Part shown: piece by piece, positions 18,355 through 49,273 of the stretch
Layout of the letters: each line of letters starts with the position of its first letter
How positions within the stretch are numbered: position 1 is the first letter of the stretch
From: Propylenella binzhouense
GTDB lineage: Bacteria; Pseudomonadota; Alphaproteobacteria; Rhizobiales; Afifellaceae
DNA: 64,000 nt
Reading direction: 5' to 3'
Assembly (NCBI RefSeq): GCF_009866965.1
Contig: NZ_SPKJ01000012.1
Coordinates: 1-64,000 of the forward strand
The notes under the pieces: model-generated
What the model was told of the DNA's origin: nothing
The model's input: the letters and a program-made list of their open reading frames with translations, nothing else
The model's database searches: none
Made by a program: the position numbers and the translations under genes

Positions 18355-18454
18355 GGGCGCCGACGGTACCGGAATCGGCCGGCGCGCGCATCCGGCTTGG
18401 GAGATGCGCCGTCGGCCAGGGGGAAAGATCTGCTTCGAACCTTGGAGGGATAGA

Positions 18455-19462: not shown

Positions 19463-19487
19463 GGTCGGGCCAGGTCGGGAAATCGGA

Positions 19488-20267: not shown

Positions 20268-20290
20268 GCGCCGAGGCCGGAGGAATTCTC

Positions 20291-21124: not shown

Positions 21125-21191
21125 CGCCTTCCTTTCCCTGCAACAGTCCCGGCCGGCGCGCCGCCCGGGCCAGACCGGAAGATTCGACCAG

Positions 21192-22115
21192 ATGAAACTC
21201 GCCGTCCCGGACCTGATCTCCAATTCCTACTTCCCGGCCGCGGCGGCGGTGGAGCTCGGCTTCTTCGCGGAGGAGGGGCTCGACGTCTCGCTCGAGCTCG
21301 TCTTCCCCGTCGACAAGGCCTACGAAGCGCTCCGCGACGGATCGGTCGACTTCGTCGGCGGCTCCGCCCATTCCGCGCTCGCCGCGTTCCCGGAATGGCG
21401 GGGCGTGAAGCTCCTCTGCGCGCAGGGCCAGGGCATGTACTGGTTCCTCGTCATGCGCGCCGATCTCGGTGCGGCGCGCGGCGATCTCTCCGTCGTGAAG
21501 GGCAGGCGGATCGGCGCGGCGCCGTGGGTCGAGATGGGGCTCCGGCGCCTGCTCGCGGCAGGCGGGATCGACATCGCGAAGGACGATGTGACGATCGCGC
21601 CGGTGCCGGGCACGGCCGGCGCCGGCGTCAATTTCGGGCTCGCCGCCGCCAAGGCGCTCGAGGAGGGCAGGATCGACGGCTTCTGGGCGAACGGCATGGG
21701 GACCGAGGTCGCGGTCCGCCGCGGCGTCGGCACGGTCGTTCTCGACATCAGGCGCGGCGACGGGCCGAAGGAATGCTTCGACTACACGATGGCCTCGATC
21801 GCGGCGACCGACCGGCTCATCGCGGAGAAGCCCGCGGCGGCCGCGGCCGCGATCCGCGCGATCGTGCGGACGCATCGGGCGCTGAAGGCCGATCCCGGGC
21901 GCGCGACCGAAGTCGGGGAGAAGCTCTTTCCTCCGTTCGAGGCGAGCCTCATCGCCGATCTCGTCCGCCGCGACCTGCCCTATTACGACCCGGCCATCTC
22001 GCGCGGCTTCGTCGAGGGCATGAACGGCTTCGCCCGCGATCTCGGCATCCTGAAGGGCCACCCGGCCTACGAGGATGTCGTCGCCGTCGCGTTCAGCGAT
22101 CTCTGGACGGCGTGA
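21192..22115 (+). CDS. NMT1/THI5-like binding protein without signal peptide
   Basis: 307 aa. The sequence begins directly with the mature-type fold (MKLAVPDLISNSYFPAAAAVELGFF, EEGLDVSLEL, then DFVGGSAHSALAAFPEW), so no export signal is visible and none can be added by an upstream in-frame start. It is 67 bases after the permease and probably in the same operon. Members without a leader could be a cytoplasmic ligand-binding or enzyme-like protein (compare THI5/ThiY-related proteins), or could be exported in an unrecognised way. The function is open; only the fold is supported. Confidence 0.8.
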   Translation: MKLAVPDLISNSYFPAAAAVELGFFAEEGLDVSLELVFPVDKAYEALRDGSVDFVGGSAHSALAAFPEWRGVKLLCAQGQGMYWFLVMRADLGAARGDLSVVKGRRIGAAPWVEMGLRRLLAAGGIDIAKDDVTIAPVPGTAGAGVNFGLAAAKALEEGRIDGFWANGMGTEVAVRRGVGTVVLDIRRGDGPKECFDYTMASIAATDRLIAEKPAAAAAAIRAIVRTHRALKADPGRATEVGEKLFPPFEASLIADLVRRDLPYYDPAISRGFVEGMNGFARDLGILKGHPAYEDVVAVAFSDLWTA

Positions 22116-22142: not shown

Positions 22143-23519
22143 TCAGACGAGCGACATCGCCTCGGCGTCGTTCAGGATGTCGCTGACCGTCCGCAGCGCA
22201 TATTCGAGCTCGCTTTGGTTCTTGGGCGAACCGAGGCAGAGCCGCACGCCGTTGCTGAGCGGGTCGAAGGAGCGGAGCGCGACCGGCGGCGCGATCGTGA
22301 CGTTCGCCATCGCCGCCTGCGCCACCAGCGAGGTGGTGGTCCTGCCGGCCGGCATCGGCAGCCAGACATGGAAGGCCGGGTCGCCGGCGACCGGGGCGAT
22401 CCGGTCGCCCAGGATGCGGCGGGCGGCGGCATAACGCTGCGCCGCGATCTTGCGCTTGCGCGCGACCTGCTCCTCGAGCTGGCCGTTGGTGACGAGCCTC
22501 GCGACGACCTCCGCCATCAGCGCGTTGGCCGACCAGCCGGTCGCCCGTACGGCGTTGATGGCGCGGTCGCGGAACGGGGAGGGGGCGTACATGGCCCCGA
22601 TCCTGAGGCCCGGCGCCAGGCATTTCGCGAAGCTCACGACATAGAAGCTGCGCTCCGGAATCCGCGCCGAGATCGGGGCGAGCGGCGGATCGGCAAGGAA
22701 TCCGTAGGCGTCGTCCTCGATCAGATAGGCGTCGTGGCGGGCGATGATCTCGGCGATCGCGTCGCGCCGCTCGGCCGGCATCACGGCGCTCGTCGGCGTC
22801 TGCAGCGTGGGCATGGCGTAGAGCACGCGCGCTCCCGTCTGGCGGAACGCCCGCTCGAGGTCTTCCGGCACCAGCCCGCCGCCGTCCATCAGCACGCCGC
22901 GGAGCTCGTAGCCGGCCTGCGTCGCGAGCGCGAGCATGCCCGAATAGGTGAGGTTCTCAGCCAGCACCGGGTCACCGGAGCGGGCGAGGAGGCTCGTGGC
23001 GATCGAGATCGCGTGCTGCGCGCCATGCGTGATGAAGAGGCAGTCGGGCGTGGTCGGCATGCCCTGCCGCGTCAGCCTGTCCGCCATGATCGCGCGGTGC
23101 TCGGCGCAGCCCTGGTGCGGCAGGTAGCCGAGAAACGCGCCGAGGCGGTCGGAGGCGAGGATGTCGGAGAGCACGCCGCCGATCGCATCTTCCTCGCCGG
23201 TCGCCGGCGGCGCGTTGAGCGCGAGATTGATGCGGCGGAACCCGCTCGTCTCCTCCGTCTCCGCCTGCTGGCCCCGCCGGCGGAGCACGAACGTGCCGCG
23301 GCCGACCTCGCCGGAGATCAGCCCGCGCTTCTGGGCCTCCGCATAGGCGCGCGAGATCGTGCCGACGCTGATGCCCATGCGCTCCGCCATCTCGCGGTGC
23401 GGCAGCAGGCGCTGCCCGGGCAGGATGGCGCCGGTCTCGATGTCGGATTCCAGCGCGCGCACGATCTCCAGGTAGCGCGGACCGCCCTCTGCTGCGATCT
23501 TCGGAATCCAGTCGGCCAT
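22143..23519 (-). CDS. MocR-type regulator (GntR DNA-binding domain fused to PLP aminotransferase fold)
   Basis: 458 aa. Residues 15-80 form a GntR winged helix (LLPHREMAERMGISVGTISRAYAEAQ, GLISGEVGRGTFV). Residues 100-458 form a fold-type I aminotransferase domain with the PLP lysine at Lys299 (VSFAKCLAPGLRIG) and LIEDDAYGFL supplying the ring-nitrogen aspartate. MocR regulators sense PLP or amino compounds and usually control the gene next to them. It is divergent from the UbiD operon, which it may regulate. The start at 23519 has AGGTGAGA upstream; the frame stays open for 169 codons further, but those have no GntR homology. A plain aminotransferase is ruled out by the N-terminal domain. 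Confidence 0.9.
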   Translation of the reverse strand: MADWIPKIAAEGGPRYLEIVRALESDIETGAILPGQRLLPHREMAERMGISVGTISRAYAEAQKRGLISGEVGRGTFVLRRRGQQAETEETSGFRRINLALNAPPATGEEDAIGGVLSDILASDRLGAFLGYLPHQGCAEHRAIMADRLTRQGMPTTPDCLFITHGAQHAISIATSLLARSGDPVLAENLTYSGMLALATQAGYELRGVLMDGGGLVPEDLERAFRQTGARVLYAMPTLQTPTSAVMPAERRDAIAEIIARHDAYLIEDDAYGFLADPPLAPISARIPERSFYVVSFAKCLAPGLRIGAMYAPSPFRDRAINAVRATGWSANALMAEVVARLVTNGQLEEQVARKRKIAAQRYAAARRILGDRIAPVAGDPAFHVWLPMPAGRTTTSLVAQAAMANVTIAPPVALRSFDPLSNGVRLCLGSPKNQSELEYALRTVSDILNDAEAMSLV

Positions 23520-24009: not shown

Positions 24010-25689
24010 ATGGACGAGCACAGCATCGCGGCCGAGGCCGAACGCCCGACCGAGCGGTCGGAGGCGGCGGCCGGCAGGCGGCCTTATAACGACCTGCACG
24101 ATCACATCGCGGAATTGCGGCGGCGCGGCCTCCTCGTCGAGGTCGACCGGCCGATCGACAAGGACAGCGAGCTTCATCCGCTGGTGCGCTGGCAGTTCGT
24201 CGGCGGCATGAAGGAGGCCGACCGCAAGGCGTTCCTCTTCACGAACATCATGGACGGCAAGGGGCGGAAATACGACATTCCGGTCGTCGTCGGCGCGCTC
24301 GCCGCCAACCGCGCGGTCTACGCCACCGGCATGAACTGCTCGGTCGACGAGATCCAGGCGAAGTGGGACCGCGCCATCGCCGAGCCCGTTCCGCCGCGTC
24401 TCGTCGAGCAGGCGCCGTGCCAGGAGATCGTCGAGACCGGAGAGGCCCTGACGAAGGAAGGCGGCGGCCTCGACCGGCTGCCGATCCCCGTCTCCACGCC
24501 CGGCTTCGACAGCGCGCCGACGCTGAGCGCGACGAACGTGATCAGCAAGGACCCGGTCACCGGCGTCCAGAACATGGGCACCTATCGCTGCGCGCTGAAG
24601 GCCCCGGACCGCCTCGTCGTCCGGATGGCGACGCGCGTCGGCGGCGCCGGCGGCTACCAGCACTACCTCAAGCACCAGGCGCGCGGCGATCACGAGATGC
24701 CGGTCGCGATCGTGCTCGGCTGCCCGCCCTACGTCGCCTTCATGGGCCCGCAGAAGCTGCCGATCGATCTCGACGAGTTCAACGTCGCGGGCGGCCTCGC
24801 CGGCGCGCCGATCAATGTCGTCAAGGCGAAGACCGTCGATCTTCTCGTGCCGGCGGAGGCCGAGGTCGTGATCGAGGGCTATGTCGATACCCGCATGGTC
24901 GAGCCGGAAGGGCCGTTCGGGGAATCGCACGGCCACGTCGCGCTCGAAGAGTTCAACATGCCGATGCGCATCACCGCGGTGACGCGCCGGCGCGACGCCG
25001 TCATTCCCTCCTATATCAGCCAGGTCGCGCCGAGCGAATCGAGCGTCATCAAGCGCGTCGCCTACGAGCCGCTCTTCCTGACGCATCTGCGCGACACGAT
25101 GAGCATCAAGGGCGTGAAGCGCGTTTCGCTGCACGAGCCGCTCACGGGCCTGCTGCGCGTGACGGTGATCACGATTGCGGCCGGCACGCCGAAGACCGAG
25201 GTCTGGCGCGCGCTCTACGGGGCCGCCTTCTTCAAGGGCGATTGCGGCAAGATCTGCATCGCCGTCAGCGAGGACATCGACCCGGACAATCCGGATGCGA
25301 TCCTGTGGGCGATGGCCTACCGGTCGAACCCGGTCGCCGACGTCCTGACCCTGCCGCATCGAGGCCAGGGCCACGGCCCGAAGCGCGAGCATGCCGGCGA
25401 GGAGGATTCGACGCTTCTCGTCGACGCGACCATGAAGTCGCCGATGCCGCCGCTGGCGCTGCCGACCCAGCCCTTCATGGAGCGCGCCCGCGCCATCTGG
25501 GAGGAGATGGGCCTGCCTCCGCTGGTCCCGCAATCGCCGTGGTTCGGCTATTCTCTCGGCGAGTGGCACCCGGCATGGGACAAGGCGGCCGAGCGCGCCG
25601 CCCATGGCGAGTACCTTGAGAACGGCAGGATCAGCCTCGGACAGCAGCAACCGGGCCTGAAGCCCGAAACCCGCTTCGTGCCCGAGTAG
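24010..25689 (+). CDS. UbiD-family (prenylated-FMN) decarboxylase
   Basis: 559 aa, somewhat longer than ubiquinone UbiD. The conserved motif EGPFGESHGH is at residues 300-309; Glu305 corresponds to the second family glutamate, Glu300 precedes the motif, and Arg193 in MGTYR is the cofactor-site arginine. These define the prFMN decarboxylase active site. It should reversibly decarboxylate an aromatic or alpha,beta-unsaturated acid in the cytoplasm. No UbiX-type prenyltransferase gene is nearby, so the cofactor must come from elsewhere. CTGGAGG precedes the ATG. Neighbours (Rieske, amidohydrolase, TctCBA carboxylate transporter) point to a catabolic rather than ubiquinone role. Confidence 0.9.
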   Translation: MDEHSIAAEAERPTERSEAAAGRRPYNDLHDHIAELRRRGLLVEVDRPIDKDSELHPLVRWQFVGGMKEADRKAFLFTNIMDGKGRKYDIPVVVGALAANRAVYATGMNCSVDEIQAKWDRAIAEPVPPRLVEQAPCQEIVETGEALTKEGGGLDRLPIPVSTPGFDSAPTLSATNVISKDPVTGVQNMGTYRCALKAPDRLVVRMATRVGGAGGYQHYLKHQARGDHEMPVAIVLGCPPYVAFMGPQKLPIDLDEFNVAGGLAGAPINVVKAKTVDLLVPAEAEVVIEGYVDTRMVEPEGPFGESHGHVALEEFNMPMRITAVTRRRDAVIPSYISQVAPSESSVIKRVAYEPLFLTHLRDTMSIKGVKRVSLHEPLTGLLRVTVITIAAGTPKTEVWRALYGAAFFKGDCGKICIAVSEDIDPDNPDAILWAMAYRSNPVADVLTLPHRGQGHGPKREHAGEEDSTLLVDATMKSPMPPLALPTQPFMERARAIWEEMGLPPLVPQSPWFGYSLGEWHPAWDKAAERAAHGEYLENGRISLGQQQPGLKPETRFVPE

Positions 25690-25739
25690 GGAACGCGCGC
25701 CGGTCCCGGAGGTCCCGGGGCCGGGCGCTTTGCGGTAGA

Positions 25740-25759
25740 ATCGTATGTGCACATACGAT
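25740..25759. promoter_or_regulatory. Perfect 20-base palindrome upstream of the Rieske gene
   Basis: ATCGTATGTGCACATACGAT is a perfect inverted repeat in the 111-base gap between the UbiD and Rieske genes, centred about 50 bases before the Rieske ATG. The size and symmetry fit an operator for a dimeric regulator (GntR, LacI or TetR type). It suggests a second, separately controlled promoter inside this gene set. Confidence 0.6.
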
Positions 25760-25800
25760 ATGGCTTGCGACCGTCTCTGCACGGTTCGGGGAAACGGATC

Positions 25801-26166
25801 ATGAAAGAAGTCTACATCTGCAGGCAGGAGGAAATGGCCGACGGCAACGTGCGCATCCTGCGCGTCGATGGCCTCGAGATCGGCGTCATCCGTCACAAGA
25901 GCCGCTTCTACGCCTACCGCAATCTTTGCCTCCACCAGGGCGGGCCGGCCTGCGAGGGCGTGCGCATGCCGGGCGTCTTCGACGACGTGGACGAGGAGGG
26001 CCGCTTCCTCGGCCAGAAATACGACGAGGACGACGTCCACATCGTCTGCCCCTGGCACGGCTACGAGTACCACCTGAGCGACGGCACGAATGTCTGCGAC
26101 CCGCGCCTCAGGCTGCAGAAGTTCGAGGTCTCGGAACGCGGAGGGAACGTCTATGTCAGCGTGTGA
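25801..26166 (+). CDS. Rieske [2Fe-2S] ferredoxin-like protein
   Basis: 121 aa. The Rieske ligand sets are intact: Cys43-x-His45 (CLH) and Cys83-x-x-His86 (CPWH). The spacing between them (37 residues) is longer than in typical Rieske ferredoxins (about 16-20) because of an acidic insert at residues 58-80 (DDVDEEGRF, KYDEDD). It should carry single electrons in the cytoplasm for an oxygenase or reductase. No Rieske oxygenase large subunit or reductase is adjacent, so its partner is unknown. ATG 25801 was chosen; the earlier in-frame ATG at 25747 lies inside the palindrome. The next gene starts 14 bases before its stop. Confidence 0.88.
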   Translation: MKEVYICRQEEMADGNVRILRVDGLEIGVIRHKSRFYAYRNLCLHQGGPACEGVRMPGVFDDVDEEGRFLGQKYDEDDVHIVCPWHGYEYHLSDGTNVCDPRLRLQKFEVSERGGNVYVSV

Positions 26167-26524
26167 GGGCGCCTCCCCGGAACCCGCCGGGACCGAATTC
26201 GAGGCCGTGGCGAGCGAGGTCGCCGCGCTCTGCGACGAGGCGATCGCCTCCGGCCGCATCGACGCGCTCTCCGACGGCGCGCTCGGCCAGATCTTCGCGA
26301 GCGCCGTCCGCCTCTATGTCGCGAAGGCCGAAACGGGCGCCAAGCTCAGGCCCTTCGCGCGGAACGTCGCGGTCACGCCGACGGAAGTGGCGATCGCCGC
26401 CATGGCCATGCTCGACGCGGCCGGCATCGAGCTCTTCGAACTCGGGCTCTGGGAGACGATGACCAGCATCCGCCCCGCCCGCCAGTCGCTCGCCGAACAG
26501 GGAGTCGGCCACCATGAGCATTGA
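26153..26524 (+). CDS. Small protein of unknown function (123 aa)
   Basis: Not recognised. The start at 26153 has a strong GGAGG upstream and lies inside the end of the Rieske gene, and the stop lies inside the start of the amidohydrolase gene. All three are thus tightly coupled and the ORF is very likely real. The sequence is helical and soluble, with an acidic N-terminus, a middle VRLYVAKAETGAKLRPF segment and TPTEVAIAAMAMLDAAGIELFELGLW near the C-terminus. It has no signal peptide, membrane span or metal motif. The location suggests a small subunit or assembly partner of the Rieske protein or the hydrolase. Confidence 0.7.
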   Translation: MSACEGASPEPAGTEFEAVASEVAALCDEAIASGRIDALSDGALGQIFASAVRLYVAKAETGAKLRPFARNVAVTPTEVAIAAMAMLDAAGIELFELGLWETMTSIRPARQSLAEQGVGHHEH

Positions 26525-27767
26525 CATGATCGACGCCGCGACGGCGGATTTCCGCGATCTCGCCACGGAAGGCTTCGACACCGGCCGCCATCTCGCCCAT
26601 GCCACCGAGCAGGCGGATGCGCGCGGCTACGAGGACTTCCTGATCGTCGACATCGACTCGCACCATTACGAGAACGAGGCCTCCGCCGAGATCGCGGAAT
26701 TCATCGAGAACCCGATCATCCGGCACGAGGTGAAGTACCAGGGCATCTCGCGGAAGGGGATCACCACCGGCTTCGGCCAGTATCAGGAGCTCGGCGGCCG
26801 GATCACGCGCTACCCGCTGCGCAAGAGCGAGAAGGTGCCGCCGCATCCGCACCGCGACATCACGCTGATGCGCCGCTGGATGGACGCGATGGGCGTCGAC
26901 GTCGCCTGCATGTTCCCGACGCCGCTCCTCAATCTCGGTCTCGCCCCCCGCGTCGACCTCGAGGTGGAGCTCGCCTTCGCCTACAACCGCTGGCTCTGCG
27001 AGACCATCCTCCAGGAGGAGCCGCGCCTGAAGTCGATGCTCTACATGCCGTTCAACGACCCGGATGCGTGTCTGAAGACGGTCGAGCAGTTCGGCGACAA
27101 GCCCGGCGTGATCGGCTTCATGGTGACGTCGACGCGCTATCGCGGCGTCTACGACAACGTCTACGCCAGAACCTACCGGGCGCTCGAGGAGCGGGGGCTG
27201 CCGATCGGCTTCCACACCGGCCTCGGCGGACAGGAGCCGGGGCTTTCGCTCTGCAACCGCTTCCTGACGCTGCATGCCCTCGGCTTCGCCTGGCACAACA
27301 TGCTGCATCTGTCGAACTGGGTGATCAACGGCATCCCGGAGCGCTTCCCGAAGCTGAAGACGCTCTGGATCGAGGCCGGGCTCGCCTGGCTGCCCTTCCT
27401 CATGCAGCGGCTCGACAACGAGTACATGATGCGCCCGTCCGACGCCCCGCTCCTGAAGCAGAAGCCGAGCGATTACATCCGGCAGATGTACTTCACCTCG
27501 CAGCCCATGGAGATGGTCGACAACAAGCGGGCGCTCGAGCTCACCTTCGACATGATCAATGCCGAGACGCAGCTGCTCTATTCGTCCGACTACCCGCATT
27601 GGGACATGGACCTGCCGAGCACGATCTACGACCTGCCGTTCCTGAGCGAGCAGGCGAAGCGGAACATCCTCGGCGGCAACGCGCAGCGCGTCTTCAACCT
27701 CGAGCCGGTCTTCTCGGAGCGGAAGCTCAGGCGCCGGGCGGAGAAGGCGATGCGCGCGGCGGTCTGA
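26514..27767 (+). CDS. Amidohydrolase-family protein (ACMSD/COG2159-like TIM barrel)
   Basis: 417 aa. The N-terminal metal motif is DIDSHHYE (Asp48, His50, His51), followed by GFHTG in the middle (metal-binding His region) and SSDYPHWD near residue 360 with the catalytic Asp. This is the pattern of aminocarboxymuconate-semialdehyde decarboxylase-like enzymes, which hydrolyse or decarboxylate ring-derived acids using one metal ion. Its start overlaps the small-protein gene by 11 bases. It is probably co-transcribed with the Rieske gene and followed by a TctC gene 116 bases on. This is the second enzyme type after UbiD in what looks like one catabolic route. The substrate is unknown. Confidence 0.87.
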   Translation: MSIDMIDAATADFRDLATEGFDTGRHLAHATEQADARGYEDFLIVDIDSHHYENEASAEIAEFIENPIIRHEVKYQGISRKGITTGFGQYQELGGRITRYPLRKSEKVPPHPHRDITLMRRWMDAMGVDVACMFPTPLLNLGLAPRVDLEVELAFAYNRWLCETILQEEPRLKSMLYMPFNDPDACLKTVEQFGDKPGVIGFMVTSTRYRGVYDNVYARTYRALEERGLPIGFHTGLGGQEPGLSLCNRFLTLHALGFAWHNMLHLSNWVINGIPERFPKLKTLWIEAGLAWLPFLMQRLDNEYMMRPSDAPLLKQKPSDYIRQMYFTSQPMEMVDNKRALELTFDMINAETQLLYSSDYPHWDMDLPSTIYDLPFLSEQAKRNILGGNAQRVFNLEPVFSERKLRRRAEKAMRAAV

Positions 27768-27883
27768 GGACGCGGCCGGCGCGCGGATGCGCAGCTCGGG
27801 AGCGACGCCGGAGCAACCGGCGCCTCCCGGCGCGGAGCGGGAAGGGGATGCGGAGAGATCCCAGGTACCTACGGAGGAAGCAG

Positions 27884-28852
27884 ATGCACCTTTCGAAGAT
27901 CAGGAAAACGGTCTGCGCGTCGCTCGTCGCGCTCGCGGCGCTTGCCGGCCCGGCCGCGGCCGAGTTTCCGGAGAAGCCGATCAAGCTCGTCGTGCCGTTC
28001 GGCCAGGGCGGCGCGACCGATCAGATGGCGCGGCTCATCGCGCCGCTGATGGAGAAGGAGCTCGGCCAGCCGATCGTCCTCATCAACCAGCCGGGCGCCG
28101 GCGGTGCGGTCGGGCTCGCCAACCTCGCCCATGCCCGCCCCGACGGCTACACGATCGGGGTCGGCTCCGATTCGACCCTCGCGGCGCGGCCGCTGATGTC
28201 GAAGTCCGGCTATACGGCCGAAAGCTTCGCCACCATCGCGCGGGTGGTGGAGATCCCGTCCGGGGTCGCGGTCCGCTCGGACAGCCCCTACAAGTCGCTC
28301 GGCGATCTCGTCGCGGCGATGAAGACGAAGGACCTCACATGGTCTTCGTCGGGCATCGGGTCCGGCCCGCATCTCGCGATGGCGGTGTTCCTCGCGCAGA
28401 ACGGGCTGAAGGCGACCTACGTCAACAGCAACAGCGGCCAGGAGGCGATGGTCAAGCTGCTCTCCGGCGAGGTCGCCTTCCTCTCGGCCGGCGGCTCGAA
28501 CTTCCCGCCGATGCTCGAGGACGGCAAGGGCGACATCCGCGTGCTCGGGCTCGCCGCGGAGAAGCGCTGGACCTACCTGCCGGACGTTCCGACCTACAAG
28601 GAACAGGGCTTCGACTATCTCCGCTCGCAATGGTTCGGGCTCGTCGCTCCCGCCGGCACGCCGGACGAGGCCGTCGCGAAGATGTCGGCCGCGGTGAAGG
28701 GCGCGGTCGAGAATCCGGAATTCGAGAAGCGGCTCGGCACCTTCTACTTCAACGCCGCCTATCAGGACCCGAAGACGATGCGCGGCCAGATCGAGAAGGA
28801 GGCGGCGGAGCTGAAGCCCGTGCTCGAGCAGGCTGGACTCGTCCAGAACTGA
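27884..28852 (+). CDS. TctC/Bug-type periplasmic binding protein of a TTT transporter
   Basis: 322 aa. A signal peptide ends near residue 26 (AGPAAA-E). The mature protein has the hallmark KPIKLVVPFGQGGATDQMARL, and QPGAGGAVGLANLAHARPDGYT. It captures a di-, tri- or aromatic carboxylate. CGGAGGAAG precedes the ATG. TctB and TctA genes follow, so this is the binding protein of a complete transporter. A small stem (GTGCC/GGCAC, 28863-28878) lies between this gene and the tctB-like gene and may help keep the binding protein in excess. Confidence 0.9.
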   Translation: MHLSKIRKTVCASLVALAALAGPAAAEFPEKPIKLVVPFGQGGATDQMARLIAPLMEKELGQPIVLINQPGAGGAVGLANLAHARPDGYTIGVGSDSTLAARPLMSKSGYTAESFATIARVVEIPSGVAVRSDSPYKSLGDLVAAMKTKDLTWSSSGIGSGPHLAMAVFLAQNGLKATYVNSNSGQEAMVKLLSGEVAFLSAGGSNFPPMLEDGKGDIRVLGLAAEKRWTYLPDVPTYKEQGFDYLRSQWFGLVAPAGTPDEAVAKMSAAVKGAVENPEFEKRLGTFYFNAAYQDPKTMRGQIEKEAAELKPVLEQAGLVQN

Positions 28853-28935
28853 GGCACCCGCCGTGCCGGCGCGGGCACTCTGGCCAGGGCGGCGCCGGCC
28901 TTTCAACACGGATGGCAAGTCGGAGGCCTGAGACG

Positions 28936-29376
28936 ATGGCGTTGCGACACGAAGACACGGTCGGCGGAGGCGCGCTGATCGCGGTGGGCGGGGTCGTGAC
29001 CCTCCTCTCCCTCGACATGGGAACGGGGGCGGCCGGGGCCACGCTCCCGCCGAATTTCTTCCCGCTCCTCTGCTCCGCGGGGCTGATGATCTGCGGGGCG
29101 GTGCTGCTGGTCCGCGGCTTGCTCTCCGCGGCGAAGCCGCTCCCCGCGCTGCTCGACGCCCGGGTCGGCGCGGTCCTCGTCGCGCTCGTCGCCTATTTCT
29201 GGTGGTTCGAGGCGATCGATTTCCGCGTCGGGACCTGGCTCTTCGCCCTCGTCGCGCTGTTCGCCTTCGGTCTCAGGCGTCCGCGGCAGCTGATCTTCGT
29301 GCCGATCGTGCTGAGCGCGGCGCTCTATCTCGCCTTCACCTACGGCTTCGACGTGGTGCTGCCGTCATGGACCTGA
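28936..29376 (+). CDS. TctB-type small membrane subunit of TTT transporter
   Basis: 146 aa with four predicted membrane helices (about 13-30, 40-60, 80-100, 118-140), the standard TctB size and topology. It pairs with TctA in the inner membrane. GGAGG lies 12 bases before the ATG at 28936. The last 10 bases overlap the tctA start. Confidence 0.88.
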   Translation: MALRHEDTVGGGALIAVGGVVTLLSLDMGTGAAGATLPPNFFPLLCSAGLMICGAVLLVRGLLSAAKPLPALLDARVGAVLVALVAYFWWFEAIDFRVGTWLFALVALFAFGLRRPRQLIFVPIVLSAALYLAFTYGFDVVLPSWT

Positions 29377-30899
29377 TCTCGTTCGCCGACGTGGCGGCGG
29401 CGCTCTCCGCCGTCGCCGATCCGACCGTCGTCTTCTTCGTCTTCGCGGGCGCCGTCATCGGCATGATCTTCGGCGCCGCGCCGGGCCTCACCGCCGCATC
29501 GGCGATCGCGCTGTTCCTGCCGATGACCTATGCGATGGGGCTCACCACCTCGATGGCGCTGCTCCTCGGCATCTATTGCAGCGGCTATTTCGCGGGCTCG
29601 ATCCCGGCGATCCTCATCAACACGCCGGGAACCCCGGGCTCCGCGGCGACCGCCCTCGACGGCCACCAGATGGCGCTGAAGGGGGAGAGCGACCGCGCCA
29701 TCACCACGGCCCTGGTCAGCTCCTTCCTCGGCGGCCTCTTCTCGCTGCTTCTCCTCACCACGATCGCGCCGAGCCTCGCCAAGGTCGCGCTGACCTTCAC
29801 GTCCGTGGAATATTTCTCCTTCGCGCTGGTCGGCATCGTCTGCGTCGCAGGGATCTCGCGCGGGTCGATGGTGAAGGGGCTCGCCTCCGCCTGCATCGGC
29901 ATCCTGGTCAGCACGGTCGGCCTCGATCCGGTGAGCGGCGTCGGCCGCTTCATCTTCGACGAGCCGAATCTCATGGGCGGAATTTCGAGCACCGCCGCCT
30001 TGATCGGGCTCTTCGCGATCGGCCAGATGCTGCTCCTCGCCAAGAAGAACAACGTGGCGGCCGAGTTCCTGCCGGTCCAGGCGAGGTCCTCGGTGCTCTC
30101 GGTGATCGGGGATCACTGGAGGAACCGCTGGATCGCGCTCCGTTCCGCGATCATCGGGACGATGATCGGCGTGCTGCCGGGCACCGGGCCGGCGATCGCC
30201 TCCTGGGTGAGCTACAGCGACGCGCTGAGGACGGCCCGGCGCGGCGACAGGTTCGGGCAGGGCGAGGTGAAGGGCGTCATCGCCTGCGAGGTCTCGAACA
30301 ACGCCGTCACGGGCGGTGCCCTCGTTCCCCTCCTGACGCTCGGCATCCCCGGCGACCCGGTGACGGCGATCCTCATCGGCGCGCTGCTGATCCAGGGCAT
30401 CGAGGCGGGGCCGTTCCTGATCAAGCACAACCCGTCTTTGTTCGTCTCGATCCTCATCCTCCTCTTCATGTCGAACTGCTTCATGGTGGCGCTCGGTCTG
30501 TGCTGCCGCAGGCTCGCGGCGAAGGTGCTCGAGATCCCCGCCGGAATCATGGTGGCGACGATCTGCACGGCCGCCGCCGCGGGTTCCTTCTCGCTTCAGA
30601 GCAATGCTTTCGACGTGAAGCTCGTCATGGCCTTCGGCCTGCTCGGCTATCTGATGATCCGGTACCGCTTTCCGACCGCGCCGGCCGTGCTCGGCATCGT
30701 GCTCGGGCCGATTCTCGAGCAGAATCTCCGCAATGCGCTCACCGGTAACGGGATGGACTTCACCGTCTTCTTCACCCGGCCGATCAGCGCCGGGGCGCTG
30801 CTCGTGATGTGCTTCCTCCTCTATGTCTGGCTGAAGCCCGCGGGCGGCCGGGGCGGCGCGAAAGCGGATGCGCGCGCGGAGGAGACCGTCAACCCCTGA
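29367..30899 (+). CDS. TctA-type large permease subunit of TTT transporter
   Basis: 510 aa, about twelve membrane spans, normal TctA length. Diagnostic segments include GMIFGAAPGLTAASAIALFLP near the N-terminus, IPAILINTPGTPGSAAT at about residue 75-90, and GTMIGVLPGTGPAIASWVSY at about 265-285. It is the Na+- or H+-driven carboxylate channel. The start at 29367 overlaps tctB by 10 bases. The acidic C-terminal tail (residues 495-510) is not conserved in the family. The likely cargo is the acid handled by the UbiD/amidohydrolase enzymes upstream. Confidence 0.92.
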   Translation: MDLISFADVAAALSAVADPTVVFFVFAGAVIGMIFGAAPGLTAASAIALFLPMTYAMGLTTSMALLLGIYCSGYFAGSIPAILINTPGTPGSAATALDGHQMALKGESDRAITTALVSSFLGGLFSLLLLTTIAPSLAKVALTFTSVEYFSFALVGIVCVAGISRGSMVKGLASACIGILVSTVGLDPVSGVGRFIFDEPNLMGGISSTAALIGLFAIGQMLLLAKKNNVAAEFLPVQARSSVLSVIGDHWRNRWIALRSAIIGTMIGVLPGTGPAIASWVSYSDALRTARRGDRFGQGEVKGVIACEVSNNAVTGGALVPLLTLGIPGDPVTAILIGALLIQGIEAGPFLIKHNPSLFVSILILLFMSNCFMVALGLCCRRLAAKVLEIPAGIMVATICTAAAAGSFSLQSNAFDVKLVMAFGLLGYLMIRYRFPTAPAVLGIVLGPILEQNLRNALTGNGMDFTVFFTRPISAGALLVMCFLLYVWLKPAGGRGGAKADARAEETVNP

Positions 30900-31114
30900 G
30901 GAAGCGGCCGGCTCTGCTCCCTCCGGGCCGCGTCGCCCGCACGTCTCCGCCGTCCGGCCCGGTCCCGGCCCGGGCGGAATTCGTCCGAGATTGCAGTGCG
31001 CTCGGGAGGAGACGGCTCCGGTCAGGTCCCATATAGTCGGCCGGCAGGCGGCGCCCGTGCCGGGCGCTGCGGGGCGCCGCTTGCTTCTGCGGCGGCTTGG
31101 ACGGAGAGGGGACA

Positions 31115-31630
31115 TTGGAGCTGCGGGCGACGGATCGGGAGGAGGCGCGGGAGAACGTGCCGGAGATCGGGCTCGGCCTGCTCCTGCGCAGTGCCAACCA
31201 GGCGTTCGGCGATGCGATCAACGCCAATCTCGCTGCCTTCGGCGTGACGCGCGGGCAGTTCAACCATCTGAGGCGCCTGTGGGAACGCGACGGCATGAGC
31301 TCCAGCGAGCTCTCCGCGCTCGTCGGCGTGAAGAAGGCGACCTCGACGAGCATTCTCGATTCGCTGGAGAGCAAGAAGCTCATCCGCCGCGTCCGCAACG
31401 ATCCGGACCGGCGCAAGGTGAACGTCTTCCTGACCGAGGCGGGGCGGGCGCTCGAGCAGGATCTGACCGAATGCGCCAAGCAGGCGAACCGCCAGGCGGC
31501 GCGGCATTTTTCCGAGGCCGAGATGCTCGCGCTCTACAGCCTGTTGCGGCGGCTCGTGAAGTCGCTGCGCGAATCCGGACCGGAGCCGTCGGCCGCCGCC
31601 GAGGCGGAGCGGTCCGGGCACGTGGCGTGA
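31115..31630 (+). CDS. MarR-family transcriptional regulator
   Basis: 171 aa from a TTG at 31115 preceded by GGAGAGGGG; another TTG at 31097 is possible. The winged helix is clear: GVTRGQFNHLRRLWERDGMSS, LSALVGVKKATSTSILDSLESK, then the wing RRVRNDPDRRKVNVFLTEAG. It probably represses or activates the adjacent hydroxylase operon (31947 on) in response to a phenolic or aromatic ligand, as is common for the family. The C-terminal tail after residue 150 is low-complexity. Confidence 0.85.
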   Translation: MELRATDREEARENVPEIGLGLLLRSANQAFGDAINANLAAFGVTRGQFNHLRRLWERDGMSSSELSALVGVKKATSTSILDSLESKKLIRRVRNDPDRRKVNVFLTEAGRALEQDLTECAKQANRQAARHFSEAEMLALYSLLRRLVKSLRESGPEPSAAAEAERSGHVA

Positions 31631-31946: not shown

Positions 31947-32819
31947 ATGAAGCCCGCCCCATTCGAGTACGTCCGCCCGGCCTCTTTGGCCGAGGCTTGT
32001 GAGCTGCTGGCGGCCAACGGCGATGCCCGCCTGATCGCGGGGGGCCAGACGCTGGTCCCGATGCTCGCGATGCGCCTGGCGCGCCCGTCGATGCTGATCG
32101 ACATCGCCCGCCTCGAGGAGCTCCGCGGCATCCGGGCCGAGGACGGCGCGATCGTCGTCGGCGCGGTCACGCGGCAGGCGGTCGCCGAGCGCGATCCGCT
32201 CGTCGCCCGCGAGGTGCCGCTCCTCGCCAAGGCGCTGCCCTGGGTCGGGCATCCGCCGACCCGCGCGCGCGGCACCGTCGGCGGCTCGATCGCGAATGCC
32301 GACCCCTCCGCCGAGATCGCCCTCGTCGCCGCCACGCTCGGGGCCGAGGTGGTGGTGCGCACCGGCGCGGACACCGAGACGATCTCCGCCACCGAGTTCT
32401 TCATCGGTCCGATGATCACCCAGGTCCCGCCGGACGGCTGCGTCACGGCGGTGCGCTTCCCCCGCCGGCCGGCCGGCCGGGTCGGGACCGGCTTCGGCGA
32501 GATCAGCGTCCGGCGGAGCGATTTCGCGCTCGTCTCCGCCGCCGCGCAGGTGGTGCTGGAGGCGGATGGCCGCTGCGCCGAATGCTTCGTCGCCGTCGGC
32601 GGCGCCGCCGACATCCCGCTGCGGCTCGAGGGCGCTTCCGCTCTCGCCGGCACCAGGCTCGCCGATTCCGACATAGCGGAGGCCATCGCCGACGACATAG
32701 CGGGCCTCGACACGATGTCCGATCTCCATGCCTCCGGCGCCTATCGCCGGCGGGTCGCGCGCACGCTCGCCATGAGGGCGGTCGCCGAGGCGCGCGAGGA
32801 AGCGAGCAGGGTTCACTGA
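31947..32819 (+). CDS. FAD-binding medium subunit of a molybdenum hydroxylase (CoxM/CutM-like)
   Basis: 290 aa, the standard length. The two FAD-pyrophosphate motifs are present: AGGQTLVPM (about residues 31-39) and the TVGGSIANADPSAE segment (about 110-123). It passes electrons from the 2Fe-2S subunit to its FAD and on to an acceptor. First of three subunit genes; its TGA overlaps the next ATG (TGATG). GGAGG precedes the ATG at 31947. Confidence 0.92.
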   Translation: MKPAPFEYVRPASLAEACELLAANGDARLIAGGQTLVPMLAMRLARPSMLIDIARLEELRGIRAEDGAIVVGAVTRQAVAERDPLVAREVPLLAKALPWVGHPPTRARGTVGGSIANADPSAEIALVAATLGAEVVVRTGADTETISATEFFIGPMITQVPPDGCVTAVRFPRRPAGRVGTGFGEISVRRSDFALVSAAAQVVLEADGRCAECFVAVGGAADIPLRLEGASALAGTRLADSDIAEAIADDIAGLDTMSDLHASGAYRRRVARTLAMRAVAEAREEASRVH

Positions 32820-33316
32820 TGAAGGTCGATCTCAACATCAACGGCGTCGAGCGGACGGTGGACGTCGAGCCGCGCACCTCGCTCCTTGACTGCCTGCGCG
32901 GCGAGCTGGCGCTCACCGGCACGCGCGCCGGCTGCGAGCACGGCGTCTGCGGCGCCTGCACCATCCTCCTCGACGGCGAGCCGGTCCGCTCCTGCCTGAT
33001 GTTCGCGGTCCAGGCCGACGGCTACGAGATCACCACGATCGAGGGCATCGCGCCGGCGCCGGGCGAGCTCAGCGTCGTCCAGGATGCCTTCGTCGAGAAG
33101 CACGGCATGCAGTGCGGCTATTGCACGTCGGGCATGGTGCTGGCGGCCCATGCGCTGCTGATGCGCAACGCCAACCCGACCGACGAGGAGATCCGCGACG
33201 CGATCTCCGCCAATCTCTGCCGCTGCACCGGCTACGGCCAGATCGTCGAGGCGATCCGGCTCGCCGCCGACAATCTCGCCCAGTCCAACGTCTTTCCCGC
33301 GGAGCGTGTGCGATGA
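32819..33316 (+). CDS. 2Fe-2S small subunit of a molybdenum hydroxylase (CoxS/CutS-like)
   Basis: 165 aa. The plant-type ferredoxin cluster ligands are Cys39, Cys44, Cys47 and Cys59 (CEHGVCGAC...C). The C-terminal cluster ligands are Cys99, Cys102, Cys134 and Cys136 (CGYC...CRC). All eight cysteines are in place. It links the Mo centre to the FAD subunit. The start overlaps the previous stop and the stop overlaps the large-subunit start (ATGA), so the three subunits are translationally coupled. Confidence 0.94.
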   Translation: MKVDLNINGVERTVDVEPRTSLLDCLRGELALTGTRAGCEHGVCGACTILLDGEPVRSCLMFAVQADGYEITTIEGIAPAPGELSVVQDAFVEKHGMQCGYCTSGMVLAAHALLMRNANPTDEEIRDAISANLCRCTGYGQIVEAIRLAADNLAQSNVFPAERVR

Positions 33317-35706
33317 CCGAGCAGGGCTTCCGCTATATTTCCAAGCCGCGGCGCGTCGCCGAGGACCGCCGCTTCGTGGTCGGGCGGGGGCGCTACGCCG
33401 CCGATATCCGCCGACCGGGCGAGCTCGCGGTGGCGCTCGTTCCCTCCCAGCACCCCTGCGCGCGCATCGTCTCGATCGATGCGAGCGCCGCGCTCGCCAT
33501 GAAGGGCGTGCGCTACGTCCTCACCGGCGAGGAGCTCGCCGCCGCGACCGACCCGCTGATGGTCGGCGTCGACGCGCCGCTCGTGAAGCGCTATCCGCTC
33601 GCCGTCGGTCGCACCCGCTATGCCGGCGAGTGGGTCGCCGCCGTCGTCGCCGAGACGCGCGCGCTCGCCGAGGACGCCACCGAGAAGGTGGTGGTGAAGT
33701 ACGAGCCGATCGAATACGTCATCGACGGCGAGGCTGCCATCGCGCCGGACGCGCCGCTCGTCCATCCCGACCACGGCTCCAACATCGTGCTGGAGAAGCG
33801 CTTCGTCTGGGGCGAGGTCGACGAGGACTTCGCGAAGGCGCCGCACAGCCTCTCCTACCGGGTGAAATGGGGCCGCAGCTCGACGGTCCCGATCGAGACC
33901 TTCAACCTCGTCGCCGAGTGGAATCCCTGGCAGGAGATCCTCGACGTCTGGGCCTCGATCCAGATGCCGAAATATCCCGATCAGATCGCGCGGGCGCTGC
34001 GGATCCCCTATACCTCGGTCCGCGTCCACCACGATGTCGACGTCGGCGGCAGCTACGGCGTCAAGCGCGGCATCAAGCACACCGTGCTCGCCGGCTATCT
34101 CGCCCGCACGCTCGGGGCGCCGATCCGGCTCATCGAGGACCGGCTGGAGAACATGCGGGCCGGCGACGCCCACGGGCCGGAACGCCTCTTCGACGTCGAG
34201 ATGGCCTATGACGATGACGGCCGCATCCTCTCCATGCGGATGCGCGCGCTCGACAATGTCGGCGCCTATATCGGCCGCTCGCCGCTCCAGCTCGGCAAGC
34301 CGGTCGGCGCGATCGTCGGCCCCTACAAGATCGGCAGCGTCGCCTACCATGCGATGGCGGTGCTCTCGAACAAGACGCCGCAGGAGGCCGTGCGCGGCTT
34401 CGGGCAGTCGCCGACCAACTACGCCATCGAGACGGGGGTGGAGAAGGTCGCCGAGGCGCTCGGGCTCGACCGGCTGGAAGTGCGGCGGCGCAACTTCGTC
34501 AAGAAGGACGAGTTCCCGTACCTGATCCCGAGCGGCACCAGCTATGACAGCGGCGACTACGATGCCGTCGCCGACAAGGTGATGGCGCAGATCGACTGGG
34601 ATGCGCTCGTCGCCGAGCGCGACCGGCTCCGCGGCGAAGGCATGCTCGCCGGCATCGGCCTTTCGGCCTGCCTGGAGCCGGGCGGCGGCAATTCCGCCTT
34701 CGAGCCGCTCCTGAACGAGAAGAACCTGACCACCACGTGGATGGAATCGGTCCGCATCAATGTCGACGCGCTCGGCGGGGTGACGGTCGCGATCCACACG
34801 ACCTCGTCGGGCCAGGGCCACGAGACGCTGGTGTCGAGCTGCGTCGGCGAGGTGCTGGAGATCGACCCGGACACGATCCGCGTCGTGCGGCCGGATTCGC
34901 TTGCGAGCCTGCCGAGCAATTCGCCCGTTGGGAGCCGCATGGCGATCATGATGGGCGGCGCGGCCTATCGCGCGGCCCACAAGGTCAAGGCGAAGCTGAT
35001 CGCGGTCGCGGCGAAGAACCTCGACGTGGCGATCGACGCGGTGTCCTACCACGACGGCAATGCCAGCGCCGGGGGCAGGACGCTCTCCTGGATGGAGCTC
35101 GTCACCATCTGCCACCGCGGCTACCACAAGCTGCCGGCCGGCATGGATCCGGGCCTCGAGGCGACCGACGTGATGCAGGTTCCGGGCGGCGAGCGCCTGC
35201 CGGAGCAGGGCCGGACCCAGATGTATCCGTGCTACTCCTTCGAGTTCCACGCCATCCTGGTGGTGATCGACCCCGCGCTCGGCAAGCCGGACATCCGGCG
35301 CTACGTGATCGGTCACGATTGCGGCACGGTCATCAACCCGCACATCGTCAAGGGCATGACGCTCGGCGGCATCGCGCACGGCATCGGCGCCTCGCTGTTC
35401 GAGGAGTTCGCCTATGACGAGGAGGGCCAGCTCCTCACCCAGAGCTTCATGGACTACCTCCTGCCGTCGTCGCACGAGGTGCCCGCCGTCGAGATCGTCC
35501 ATCACGTCAGCCCGTCGCCGCATACCGTGTTCGGGCAGAAGGGCTCGGGCGAGTCCGGCTATCTCGGCAGCCCGGCCGCCATCTCCAGCGCGGTCAACGA
35601 CGCCGTGCGTCCGCTCGGCATCCGCTTCGACGCGCTGCCCATCCGCATCTCGGCGATCGGCGATGCTGTCGCCGAGGCCCTCGAGAAGACCGAAGGACTG
35701 CAATGA
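33313..35706 (+). CDS. Molybdopterin-binding large subunit, xanthine dehydrogenase/CoxL family (not form I CODH)
   Basis: 797 aa. The N-terminal aldehyde-oxidase-like hammerhead starts KPRRVAEDRRFVVGRGRYAADI. The Mo-pyranopterin site includes GQGHETLVSSC and the catalytic glutamate Glu747 in GQKGSGESG. At the position of the form I CO dehydrogenase loop AYxCSFR, and of form II AYRGAGR, this protein reads AVRGFGQ (359-365). It therefore lacks the Cys that holds the Cu-Mo centre and should not oxidise CO. It more likely hydroxylates a carbon next to a ring nitrogen or an aldehyde/aromatic substrate. The MSL gene order is CODH-like, but the CoxDEF maturation genes are absent nearby. An amidohydrolase gene overlaps its end. 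Confidence 0.92.
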   Translation: MTEQGFRYISKPRRVAEDRRFVVGRGRYAADIRRPGELAVALVPSQHPCARIVSIDASAALAMKGVRYVLTGEELAAATDPLMVGVDAPLVKRYPLAVGRTRYAGEWVAAVVAETRALAEDATEKVVVKYEPIEYVIDGEAAIAPDAPLVHPDHGSNIVLEKRFVWGEVDEDFAKAPHSLSYRVKWGRSSTVPIETFNLVAEWNPWQEILDVWASIQMPKYPDQIARALRIPYTSVRVHHDVDVGGSYGVKRGIKHTVLAGYLARTLGAPIRLIEDRLENMRAGDAHGPERLFDVEMAYDDDGRILSMRMRALDNVGAYIGRSPLQLGKPVGAIVGPYKIGSVAYHAMAVLSNKTPQEAVRGFGQSPTNYAIETGVEKVAEALGLDRLEVRRRNFVKKDEFPYLIPSGTSYDSGDYDAVADKVMAQIDWDALVAERDRLRGEGMLAGIGLSACLEPGGGNSAFEPLLNEKNLTTTWMESVRINVDALGGVTVAIHTTSSGQGHETLVSSCVGEVLEIDPDTIRVVRPDSLASLPSNSPVGSRMAIMMGGAAYRAAHKVKAKLIAVAAKNLDVAIDAVSYHDGNASAGGRTLSWMELVTICHRGYHKLPAGMDPGLEATDVMQVPGGERLPEQGRTQMYPCYSFEFHAILVVIDPALGKPDIRRYVIGHDCGTVINPHIVKGMTLGGIAHGIGASLFEEFAYDEEGQLLTQSFMDYLLPSSHEVPAVEIVHHVSPSPHTVFGQKGSGESGYLGSPAAISSAVNDAVRPLGIRFDALPIRISAIGDAVAEALEKTEGLQ

Positions 35707-36680
35707 TCATCGACGCCCACGCGCATCTCTTCCCGCCGACCCTCCTCGACAAGATCCGCAAGGAGAAGGGGCGCTTCCCGTCGGTCGCGGCGGTCGAGGC
35801 GGGCGACAGCCTCTCGCTCGGCTTCGCCGGCGGCAAGCTCTCGCGTCCGGTGGCGAAGGGCCTGACCGACATTGCCGGCCGGAAGGCCTGGATGGCGAAG
35901 AACGGCATCGACCGCCAGATTGTCGGCGGCTGGGTCGACAGCTTCGGCTATGAGCTGCCGCCCAAGGAGGGCGCGGCCTGGGCGAGCCTCATCAACGAGG
36001 ACCTGATGGAGACGGCGAAGGCCGAGCCGGCCTTCGTGCCGCTCGCCGACGTGCCGCTCCAGAGCGGCGCCGAGGCGGCCGCGATCCTCAGGGAGGCGCA
36101 TTCGGCCGGCTTCCGGGGCGCCATGATCGGCACGCAGCCGAACGGCAAGGGCTCGGTGCTCGATGCGCCGGAGCTCGACCCGTTCTGGCAGGAGGCCGAC
36201 CGCCTCGGCTCCGTCCTCTTCATTCATCCCGTCTTCGACAGCGGCGACGACCGCAATCTCGATTACGGCATGCCGAATGCCGTCGGGCGCATCACGGATA
36301 CGATGATCGCGGTGAGCCGGCTTCTCTATTCCGGCCACGTGCTGCGCTATTCCGGCGCCAAGATCGTGATCGGGATCGGCGGCGCGGGCCTGCCGATCAT
36401 CCTCGGCCGGCTGCGGCGCAATCATTCCCTCGACCCGGAGAAGCTCGCCGATCCGGTCAAGGGCATCGCGTCCATGTATTACGACACGCTCATCCACGAT
36501 GCGAACGCGCTGAAGTTCGTCGCGAGCGTGGTCGGGACCGACCGCATGATGCTCGGCTCCGACATGCCGTTCCCGATCGGCGACATGGAGCCGAAGAAGG
36601 TGGTCGAGGAGGCGGGCTTCGACGAGGCCGCGCGCGCCTCGATCTATGGCGGTCTCGCCGAGAAGCTGCTGGCCGGCTGA
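35703..36680 (+). CDS. Amidohydrolase-family protein (ACMSD-like)
   Basis: 325 aa. The N-terminal metal motif is DAHAHLFPP (His6, His8), a VLFIHPVFD segment supplies a middle histidine, and GSDMPFP near residue 287 carries the catalytic aspartate. This is the aminocarboxymuconate-semialdehyde decarboxylase/gamma-resorcylate decarboxylase group of metal-dependent enzymes. Its ATG overlaps the large-subunit stop by 4 bases, so it is made together with the hydroxylase. A plausible route is ring hydroxylation followed by hydrolysis or decarboxylation. The substrate is unknown. Confidence 0.88.
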   Translation: MIIDAHAHLFPPTLLDKIRKEKGRFPSVAAVEAGDSLSLGFAGGKLSRPVAKGLTDIAGRKAWMAKNGIDRQIVGGWVDSFGYELPPKEGAAWASLINEDLMETAKAEPAFVPLADVPLQSGAEAAAILREAHSAGFRGAMIGTQPNGKGSVLDAPELDPFWQEADRLGSVLFIHPVFDSGDDRNLDYGMPNAVGRITDTMIAVSRLLYSGHVLRYSGAKIVIGIGGAGLPIILGRLRRNHSLDPEKLADPVKGIASMYYDTLIHDANALKFVASVVGTDRMMLGSDMPFPIGDMEPKKVVEEAGFDEAARASIYGGLAEKLLAG

Positions 36681-36699
36681 GGCCCTGGAGAGACACGAC

Positions 36700-37170
36700 A
36701 TGAAGGTCGAACTCAAAGGCAACGAGACGATCGCGGCGCCGCGCGACGCGGTCTGGACGGCGCTCAACGATCCGGCGTTCCTCGCCGAATGCATCCCGGG
36801 CTGCAGCGGCATGCGCGAGGTCGGCCCGGACGCCTACAAGGTCGATATGAACCTCAAGGTCGCCTCGGTCGGCGGCACCTTCGAAGGCGATATCGCGCTC
36901 TCCGACAAGGAGCCGCCGCGGGCCTGCCGGATCACCGTCTCCGGCGCCGGCACGCTCGGCCACGGCAACGGCGAGGCGCGTTTCGAGATCGAGGACAACG
37001 GCGACGGCACCTCCGCGCTCTCCTACCAGGGCAAGGGCGAGGTCGGCGGGCTCGTCGCCGGCGTCGGCCAGCGCATCCTCGGCAGCGTCGCGAAGCACCT
37101 CACGGGCCGCTTCTTCAAGGCCGCCAAGCAGAAGCTCGAGGCGCCAGAAAAGGCGGCCGCGGGCGCCTGA
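36700..37170 (+). CDS. CoxG-like SRPBCC-domain protein
   Basis: 156 aa. It has the CoxG pattern (KGNETIAAPRDAVWTALNDP at the start, ECIPGC at residues 30-36, GSVAKHLTGRFF near the end). In CO dehydrogenase systems CoxG helps anchor the enzyme to the membrane; in other molybdenum-hydroxylase operons it has a similar presumed role. GGAGAGA precedes the ATG. The presence of CoxG without the other accessory genes (CoxDEF) is worth noting. Confidence 0.9.
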   Translation: MKVELKGNETIAAPRDAVWTALNDPAFLAECIPGCSGMREVGPDAYKVDMNLKVASVGGTFEGDIALSDKEPPRACRITVSGAGTLGHGNGEARFEIEDNGDGTSALSYQGKGEVGGLVAGVGQRILGSVAKHLTGRFFKAAKQKLEAPEKAAAGA

Positions 37171-46128: not shown

Positions 46129-46183
46129 CGGGGCGGCTCCAGGGGCGGCAGGACCTCCGAATTCTACCCAGAATCTCCGGACC
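46074..46183. repeat. Island-flanking direct repeat, left copy
   Basis: 110 bases matching 60609-60719 in the same orientation with seven mismatches and a one-base indel. It covers the first 18 codons of the 101-aa gene and the 55 bases upstream. It ends two bases before the stop codon of the monooxygenase gene, the first island gene. Confidence 0.9.
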
Positions 46184-46185
46184 GA

Positions 46186-49230: not shown

Positions 49231-49273
49231 CGACGGACGCCGGACCGTGATGGATGGTCCGGCGTCCCGACAA

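Follow-up and report, generated by a model that had tools for sequence, protein, structure and literature searches.

What does a small Rieske protein do when no classical oxygenase is encoded beside it? The question is raised by a 64,000-nucleotide stretch of the Propylenella binzhouense genome (NZ_SPKJ01000012.1, positions 1-64,000; hereafter the window). Here genes for a UbiD-family decarboxylase dependent on prenylated flavin mononucleotide (prFMN), a Rieske [2Fe-2S] ferredoxin, a 123-aa small helical protein, an amidohydrolase-fold protein and a TctCBA transporter follow one another, with a MocR-type regulator gene in divergent position. All of these had been named in an original prediction for this DNA and were found where it had claimed them, by Pfam/NCBIfam searches and reading of the open reading frames. 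The same prediction described the amidohydrolase-fold protein as ACMSD-like and the Rieske protein as lacking an oxygenase partner. We report here that the 417-aa amidohydrolase-fold protein is very probably itself the oxygenase, an amidohydrolase-related dinuclear oxygenase (ARO) of the AibH2/SfbO class, as judged from its sequence and a structural model, and we propose the small protein as a third component of this enzyme.

In order to place the amidohydrolase-fold protein among its structural relatives, its sequence was compared with the PDB. The top matches were 8sm7, 8sm9, 8sm6 (SfbO) and 6m1w_B (AibH2); in the ranking four AROs reached E-values of 1e-40 to 7e-23, AibH2 2e-30 and mononuclear decarboxylases 2e-14 or worse. 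The metal ligands of AibH2 are D25, H27, H211, E265, D337 and H340 (PMC10401708, PMC7782822). Its H211, E265, D337 and H340 aligned exactly with H234, E287, D359 and H362 of the window protein, and the DxH motif of 8SM7 and SfbO aligned with D48xH50. The complete dinuclear set (D48, H50, H234, E287, D359 and H362) is therefore kept in the alignment, and all six ligands are retained in 79 of 80 relatives. A predicted structure (predicted local distance difference test score, pLDDT, of 88) gave Z-scores of 35.7-38.8 against AROs, 32.5 against PtmU3 and at most 31.9 against non-AROs (mononuclear decarboxylases). The adjoining gene encodes a small Rieske protein with the CxH...CxxH pattern, read in the sequence as CLH and CPWH, the cysteines and histidines of which are invariant across an alignment of relatives; a Rieske gene is likewise adjacent at 67 of 78 related ARO loci. 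AROs, a class described between 2021 and 2024, are encoded beside small Rieske proteins and contain Fe/Fe or Mn/Fe centres (PMC7782822, PMC10401708, PMC10811679), and Rieske adjacency is the published hallmark by which they were found (PMC10811679). Hydroxylation of C-H bonds has been shown for AibH1H2 (PMC7782822, PMC10401708) and, with surrogate substrates, for SfbO (PMC10811679).

That this protein is instead a mononuclear hydrolase or decarboxylase of the ACMSD type, the Rieske protein serving another enzyme, is in our view highly improbable. Both proteins belong to PF04909 and share a fold, but ACMSD and the related PF04909 decarboxylases have a mononuclear HxH site, which DxH and a glutamate replace here, and AROs outrank ACMSD in both the sequence and the structure comparison. 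Moreover, the HxH motif is present in the second amidohydrolase of the window (as DAHAH near the N terminus), and across the ARO clade the Rieske gene remains a neighbour. An ACMSD-type identity was therefore rejected. The ACMSD-like label belongs to that second amidohydrolase, which is probably a non-oxidative decarboxylase or hydrolase, judging from its family. Since the protein beside the Rieske gene is of the ARO type and the ACMSD-like enzyme is a separate gene product, the earlier view of a Rieske protein without an oxygenase was most likely wrong, and the accompanying guess very likely holds: the Rieske protein would act for the "hydrolase" or for an enzyme of which the small protein is a part. 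The annotation is corrected as well, since the proteins labelled "amidohydrolase family protein" here are probably oxygenases.

Among known systems, the closest solved relatives by sequence and by model are SfbO, 8SM7, 8SM8 and 8SM9, which were found via Rieske linkage; they are 22-30% identical to the window protein over the fold, and the main text describing them mentions no small third component (PMC10811679). The 2-aminoisobutyrate monooxygenase of Rhodococcus wratislaviensis, AibH1H2-AibG-AibF (PMC7782822, PMC10401708), has in common with the window the six dinuclear ligands, an adjacent small Rieske ferredoxin and a catabolic operon with a transporter. However, the catalytic proteins are only about 25% identical, AibH1 is absent from the window and the 123-aa helical protein is part of the set. 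The window further has a tripartite tricarboxylate transporter (TTT) in place of an amino-acid permease, and adds UbiD and a molybdenum hydroxylase. Neither a mononuclear, AibH1-like second subunit nor a second ARO was found next to the catalytic gene, and no AibF-type reductase was recognised beside it among the genes scanned. PtmU3 from platensimycin biosynthesis shares the ARO fold but is biosynthetic and more distant (E-value 4e-14). None of the characterised AROs compared is reported to have a counterpart of the small protein.

The linkage of the small gene to the other two was examined with relatives collected in two independent ways, from the ARO (78 loci) and, in whole genomes, from the profile of the small protein alone (22 distinct loci, two of them in the P. 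binzhouense genome). The whole-genome counts are lower bounds, as few candidates per genome were scored. Around the AROs, both a Rieske and a small gene were found at 57 loci, a Rieske gene only at 10, a small gene only at two and neither at nine; at the two small-only loci the ARO gene lies near a contig end, and several of the nine are later copies in tandem ARO arrays. When the small protein served as the seed, a Rieske gene was adjacent at every one of the 22 loci and an ARO gene at 21. The three genes occur in the orders Rieske-small-ARO, Rieske-ARO-small, ARO-small-Rieske and ARO-Rieske-small; the link is therefore not that of a frozen operon. In the window, the small gene overlaps the Rieske gene by 14 nt and the ARO gene by 11 nt.

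When 94 amidohydrolase-fold proteins were arranged in a tree, the deep branches of which are long and weakly placed, the small gene was limited to one well supported clade. AibH2, SfbO, 8SM7 and a haloarchaeal ARO fall outside it; for the three PDB proteins the absence of a small gene was assumed from the silence of the respective papers. The distribution of the gene required 10 changes on the tree, against a mean of 28 after shuffling, and it was probably lost several times inside its clade. At three loci of other AROs (L127-L129 in our numbering), a second, degenerate amidohydrolase resembling AibH1 is encoded next to the Rieske protein and there is no small gene.

Individual loci showed further variations. 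The P. binzhouense genome carries a second Rieske-small-ARO set on contig C112 (L008:8596-10530), with a small protein 29% and an ARO 52% identical to those of the window; an aldehyde dehydrogenase-like gene lies upstream and genes resembling a tripartite ATP-independent periplasmic (TRAP) transporter lie downstream, and the set probably acts on another substrate. In two metagenome-assembled genomes (MAGs) of Rhodospirillales, one Rieske and one small gene are followed by five (L040:2272-9209) or four (L041:6044-11773) head-to-tail ARO genes. At L097:858-1815 the Rieske and small genes have no ARO gene within 1.5 kb, and the downstream genes are seemingly unrelated, perhaps CRISPR-type by eye. 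The second of two tandem AROs at L089:9275-10456 has the ligands DHHENN, with the aspartate and histidine of the second metal site lost, and recalls AibH1. On a haloarchaeal plasmid (L012:8034-9520), an ARO gene directly precedes a Rieske gene beside a TRAP transporter and without a small gene, so that the ARO-Rieske pair crosses domains. Lastly, the small proteins and AROs of a "Gammaproteobacteria" MAG (L070) and of Marinibacterium (L071) are identical, and the label of the MAG probably reflects contamination or else a very recent transfer occurred.

The small protein of the window has no Pfam, NCBIfam or PDB sequence match. Among 64 relatives, Pfam and NCBIfam returned only scattered weak matches, each in one to three members, and a PDB search with the family profile had as its sole match one designed helical protein (E-value 0.11). 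The model (pLDDT 84) consists of four main helices; Foldseek returned one meaningless match, and a second structural comparison, made with only four chains, gave Z 2.3, a result that does not imply a novel fold. The consensus of the family reads ..VRLYAAKAE..VTATDV...L.A....FELGMWQ. Its mean pairwise distance (0.67, compared to 0.52 for the Rieske proteins and 0.39 for the AROs) indicates fast evolution, and because of this divergence a tblastn search of plasmids returned only one record. Partial mirror-tree correlations with the ARO and the Rieske protein (r of 0.35 and 0.37, respectively) are equal and therefore do not tell the two apart as binding partners. The ARO class itself is already known. 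In the literature searched, which lay mostly outside subscription journals and preprints, we found no small ARO partner, nor any account of an ARO clade that constantly has an additional protein or of the UbiD-containing pathway; a word search of the two Rittle papers for such a partner was negative.

Two roles were considered for this proposed third component. It is possible, and we suggest it tentatively, that the small protein acts as a redox-neutral effector or as a docking subunit. Its role would then resemble that of MmoB/TmoD in bacterial multicomponent monooxygenases, namely to couple the delivery of electrons by the Rieske protein to the binding of substrate. The survival of the three-gene linkage through changes of gene order is consistent with such a subunit, as is the presence of a second amidohydrolase-like gene instead at L127-L129, but no sequence or fold match to known effectors was found. 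We regard it as rather unlikely that the ARO and Rieske assignments hold and the small protein does its work before catalysis, as a factor for assembly or metal loading (for Mn/Fe insertion, for instance) outside the working enzyme. Its constant linkage despite fast evolution, its repeated absence within the clade and the presence of a single small gene where four or five AROs stand in tandem would all suit such a factor; however, characterised AROs load their metals without it, and the translational overlap with both partner genes suits a stoichiometric subunit better.

The genes surrounding the oxygenase are listed in Table 1. TctCBA is complete, with the receptor and the small and large membrane proteins encoded together according to Pfam. 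The order UbiD-Rieske-small-ARO-TctCBA recurs in five other alphaproteobacterial genomes or MAGs (L017-L021), namely those of Arsenicitalea, Roseitranquillus and Agaricicola, a Roseicyclus MAG and an Oricola MAG. Arsenicitalea aurantiaca 42-50 and Agaricicola taiwanensis are cultured bacteria with the full set. An order of seven genes that is kept in five further genomes is more than chance would give, and shows the set to be real and conserved. The original prediction had wished to see co-occurrence of the soluble genes checked, and this comparison of neighbourhoods supported its idea of conserved genes that serve acid catabolism together.

Table 1. Genes of the oxygenase locus and of the adjoining block in the window (NZ_SPKJ01000012.1, positions 1-64,000)
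Feature	Position	Strand	Evidence
MocR-type regulator (GntR + aminotransferase I/II)	22143..23519, start approximate	(-)	Pfam PF00392, PF00155
UbiD-family prFMN decarboxylase	24010..25689	(+)	PF01977 E 1e-48, PF20695, PF20696
Rieske [2Fe-2S] ferredoxin, 121 aa	25801..26166	(+)	PF00355 E 2e-11
123-aa small helical protein	26153..26524	(+)	no Pfam/NCBIfam match
Amidohydrolase-fold protein (very probably an ARO), 417 aa	26514..27767	(+)	PF04909 E 6e-22
TctC solute receptor	27884..28852	(+)	PF03401 E 4e-53; orthologues in L017-L021
TctB	~28936..29376	(+)	PF07331 E 1e-14
TctA	29367..30899	(+)	PF01970 E 2e-135
MarR-family regulator, between the two blocks	31097..31630, start uncertain	(+)	PF01047 E 7e-13
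Molybdenum hydroxylase, FAD subunit	31947..32819	(+)	PF00941, PF03450
Molybdenum hydroxylase, 2x[2Fe-2S] subunit	32816..33316	(+)	PF01799, PF00111
Molybdenum hydroxylase, molybdopterin subunit	33319..35706, start approximate	(+)	PF20256, PF02738
ACMSD-like amidohydrolase	35703..36680	(+)	top PDB matches all ACMSD, E 2e-37
CoxG-like protein	36646..37170	(+)	PF06240 E 4e-28

The UbiD protein has 76-83% identical orthologues at L017-L021. It comprises three domains and retains, in the alignment, Arg193 and both glutamates of EGPFGE (300 and 305), which by analogy with Fdc1 we take to be catalytic. The nearest solved structures, 6h6x and 6h6v of the furandicarboxylate decarboxylase HmfF, align at the same Arg/Glu/Glu but are distant (E-value 4e-36), and their substrate is therefore not transferable. 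UbiX is encoded by a single gene elsewhere in the P. binzhouense genome.

The set proved larger than had been described. At L017, L018, L020 and L021, genes for a molybdenum hydroxylase, an ACMSD-like protein, a CoxG-like protein, a PcaD-like alpha/beta hydrolase and UbiX lie just upstream of UbiD, and a gene for a thiamine diphosphate (ThDP) enzyme follows TctA; L019 retains CoxG, UbiX and the ThDP enzyme. In the window, by contrast, the molybdenum hydroxylase, ACMSD-like and CoxG genes are found at 31947-37170, downstream of TctA and behind the MarR gene. The molybdopterin subunit has orthologues of 66-71% identity upstream of UbiX-UbiD in those same four loci, which also hold orthologues of the window's ACMSD-like protein, and the CoxG-like protein has orthologues in all five. 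This second block of the window belongs to the set as well. The MocR gene does stand in divergent position (its top NCBIfam model, EhuR, scored 399 bits against a cut-off of 480), but it is not a member of the conserved set, UbiX rather than MocR preceding UbiD at L017-L021. At L092, a betaproteobacterial locus that has diverged, Rieske-small-ARO is surrounded by genes for a molybdenum hydroxylase, a PcaD-like protein and a ThDP enzyme, as well as by CoxG-like and aldehyde dehydrogenase-like genes by their sequences, with no UbiD gene beside it. Judging from these families, the pathway is likely to include the uptake of an acid through the TTT, a decarboxylation and a hydroxylation, and a (hetero)aromatic acid is the substrate class that would best fit UbiD and the molybdenum hydroxylase.

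Outside the oxygenase locus, a further catabolic-looking block lies at 15767-22115 of the window, with an FAD hydroxylase, an amidase, NMT1/THI5-like receptors and an ATP-binding cassette transporter. The G+C content falls from about 0.70 to about 0.62 over 46000-64000, which may mark a different genome segment.

A published cluster of similar content is the pic cluster of Alcaligenes and Bordetella, described with a molybdenum hydroxylase, a multicomponent monooxygenase, an amidohydrolase-family decarboxylase and a MarR regulator, as in the window (PMC10142695). The window could then encode a pic-like pathway for picolinate (a pyridine-carboxylate), with the molybdenum hydroxylase as PicA, Rieske-small-ARO as part of PicB1-B4, the ACMSD-like protein as PicC and the MarR protein as PicR, an explanation that we find improbable. 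According to the same source, PicB is encoded by four genes, PicB2 showing the lowest conservation, while the decarboxylase PicC comes from the amidohydrolase family and the repressor PicR from the MarR family; genes for a molybdenum hydroxylase, an ACMSD-like protein and a MarR regulator are indeed present in the window. However, that source names no UbiD, ThDP or PcaD-like gene for pic, and lower-pathway genes were not identified in the window. Moreover, when 349 genomes from one Burkholderiales family were searched, AROs of the clade were seen in only two, whereas pic is reported throughout Bordetella, possibly outside this sample. At the betaproteobacterial loci L092 and L134, a pic-type lower pathway was not seen, although the genes there were not scanned against the family library.

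Overall, we consider it likely that the window encodes a three-protein ARO monooxygenase acting in (hetero)aromatic acid catabolism. TctCBA would import an organic, probably (hetero)aromatic, acid, from which UbiD would remove a carboxylate with prFMN supplied by the single UbiX encoded elsewhere in the genome. The ARO is predicted to bind two metals (Fe/Fe or Mn/Fe) and to activate O2 at this dinuclear centre, where a pathway intermediate would be hydroxylated at a C-H bond, as in AibH1H2 and SfbO. The adjacent Rieske protein would hand single electrons to the centre and would be recharged by a reductase whose gene lies elsewhere. The small protein may bind the ARO, the Rieske protein or both, for docking, gating or assembly, and may fill the partner place held in AibH1H2 by the degenerate amidohydrolase AibH1. 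The molybdenum hydroxylase and the ACMSD-like enzyme (31947-37170) would act in the same pathway. Of this picture, the sequences themselves establish what the genes are, the metal ligands, the residues of the Rieske and UbiD proteins and the conservation of the linkage, from which the O2 chemistry, the path of the electrons, the part played by the small protein, the sequence of steps and the class of substrate are inferred.

Several observations weigh against this proposal. The small gene is not beside the ARO gene at 19 of the 78 clade loci, ten of which have an adjacent Rieske gene, and it is therefore not strictly needed for every such enzyme. As its model matches no solved fold, the role suggested for the small protein is drawn from gene linkage. 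A ferredoxin reductase was not recognised beside the oxygenase among the genes scanned, which were a part of the open reading frames of the window. UbiD and TctCBA, in turn, accompany only the nearest relatives of the window ARO; the ARO module is therefore used in several pathways, and its substrate is not readable from the genes. Separately, an FAD protein encoded beside L013 was considered as a ferredoxin reductase and dropped, its sequence and relatives resembling aromatic FAD hydroxylases.

Hardly any substrates are known for AROs, and their redox partners are largely predicted. The context of UbiD/UbiX, molybdenum hydroxylase, ACMSD-like, PcaD-like and ThDP enzymes and a TTT narrows the substrate here to an imported acid. 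Should PicB, the four-component 6-hydroxypicolinate monooxygenase, prove to be of the same kind, a name and a reaction (6-hydroxypicolinate 3-hydroxylation) would already exist for the module, and the novelty would lie in the cluster and in the structural recognition. With some reserve, we suggest that the small family may be a new type of regulatory or docking subunit for a large proteobacterial clade of AROs, which would then be three-protein enzymes (ferredoxin, small subunit and oxygenase) that differ from the characterised ones, and that the cluster may represent an undescribed aerobic pathway combining prFMN-dependent decarboxylation with an ARO. The conserved, unnamed partner protein would provide a marker for hundreds more AROs and a concrete missing part for their reconstitution.

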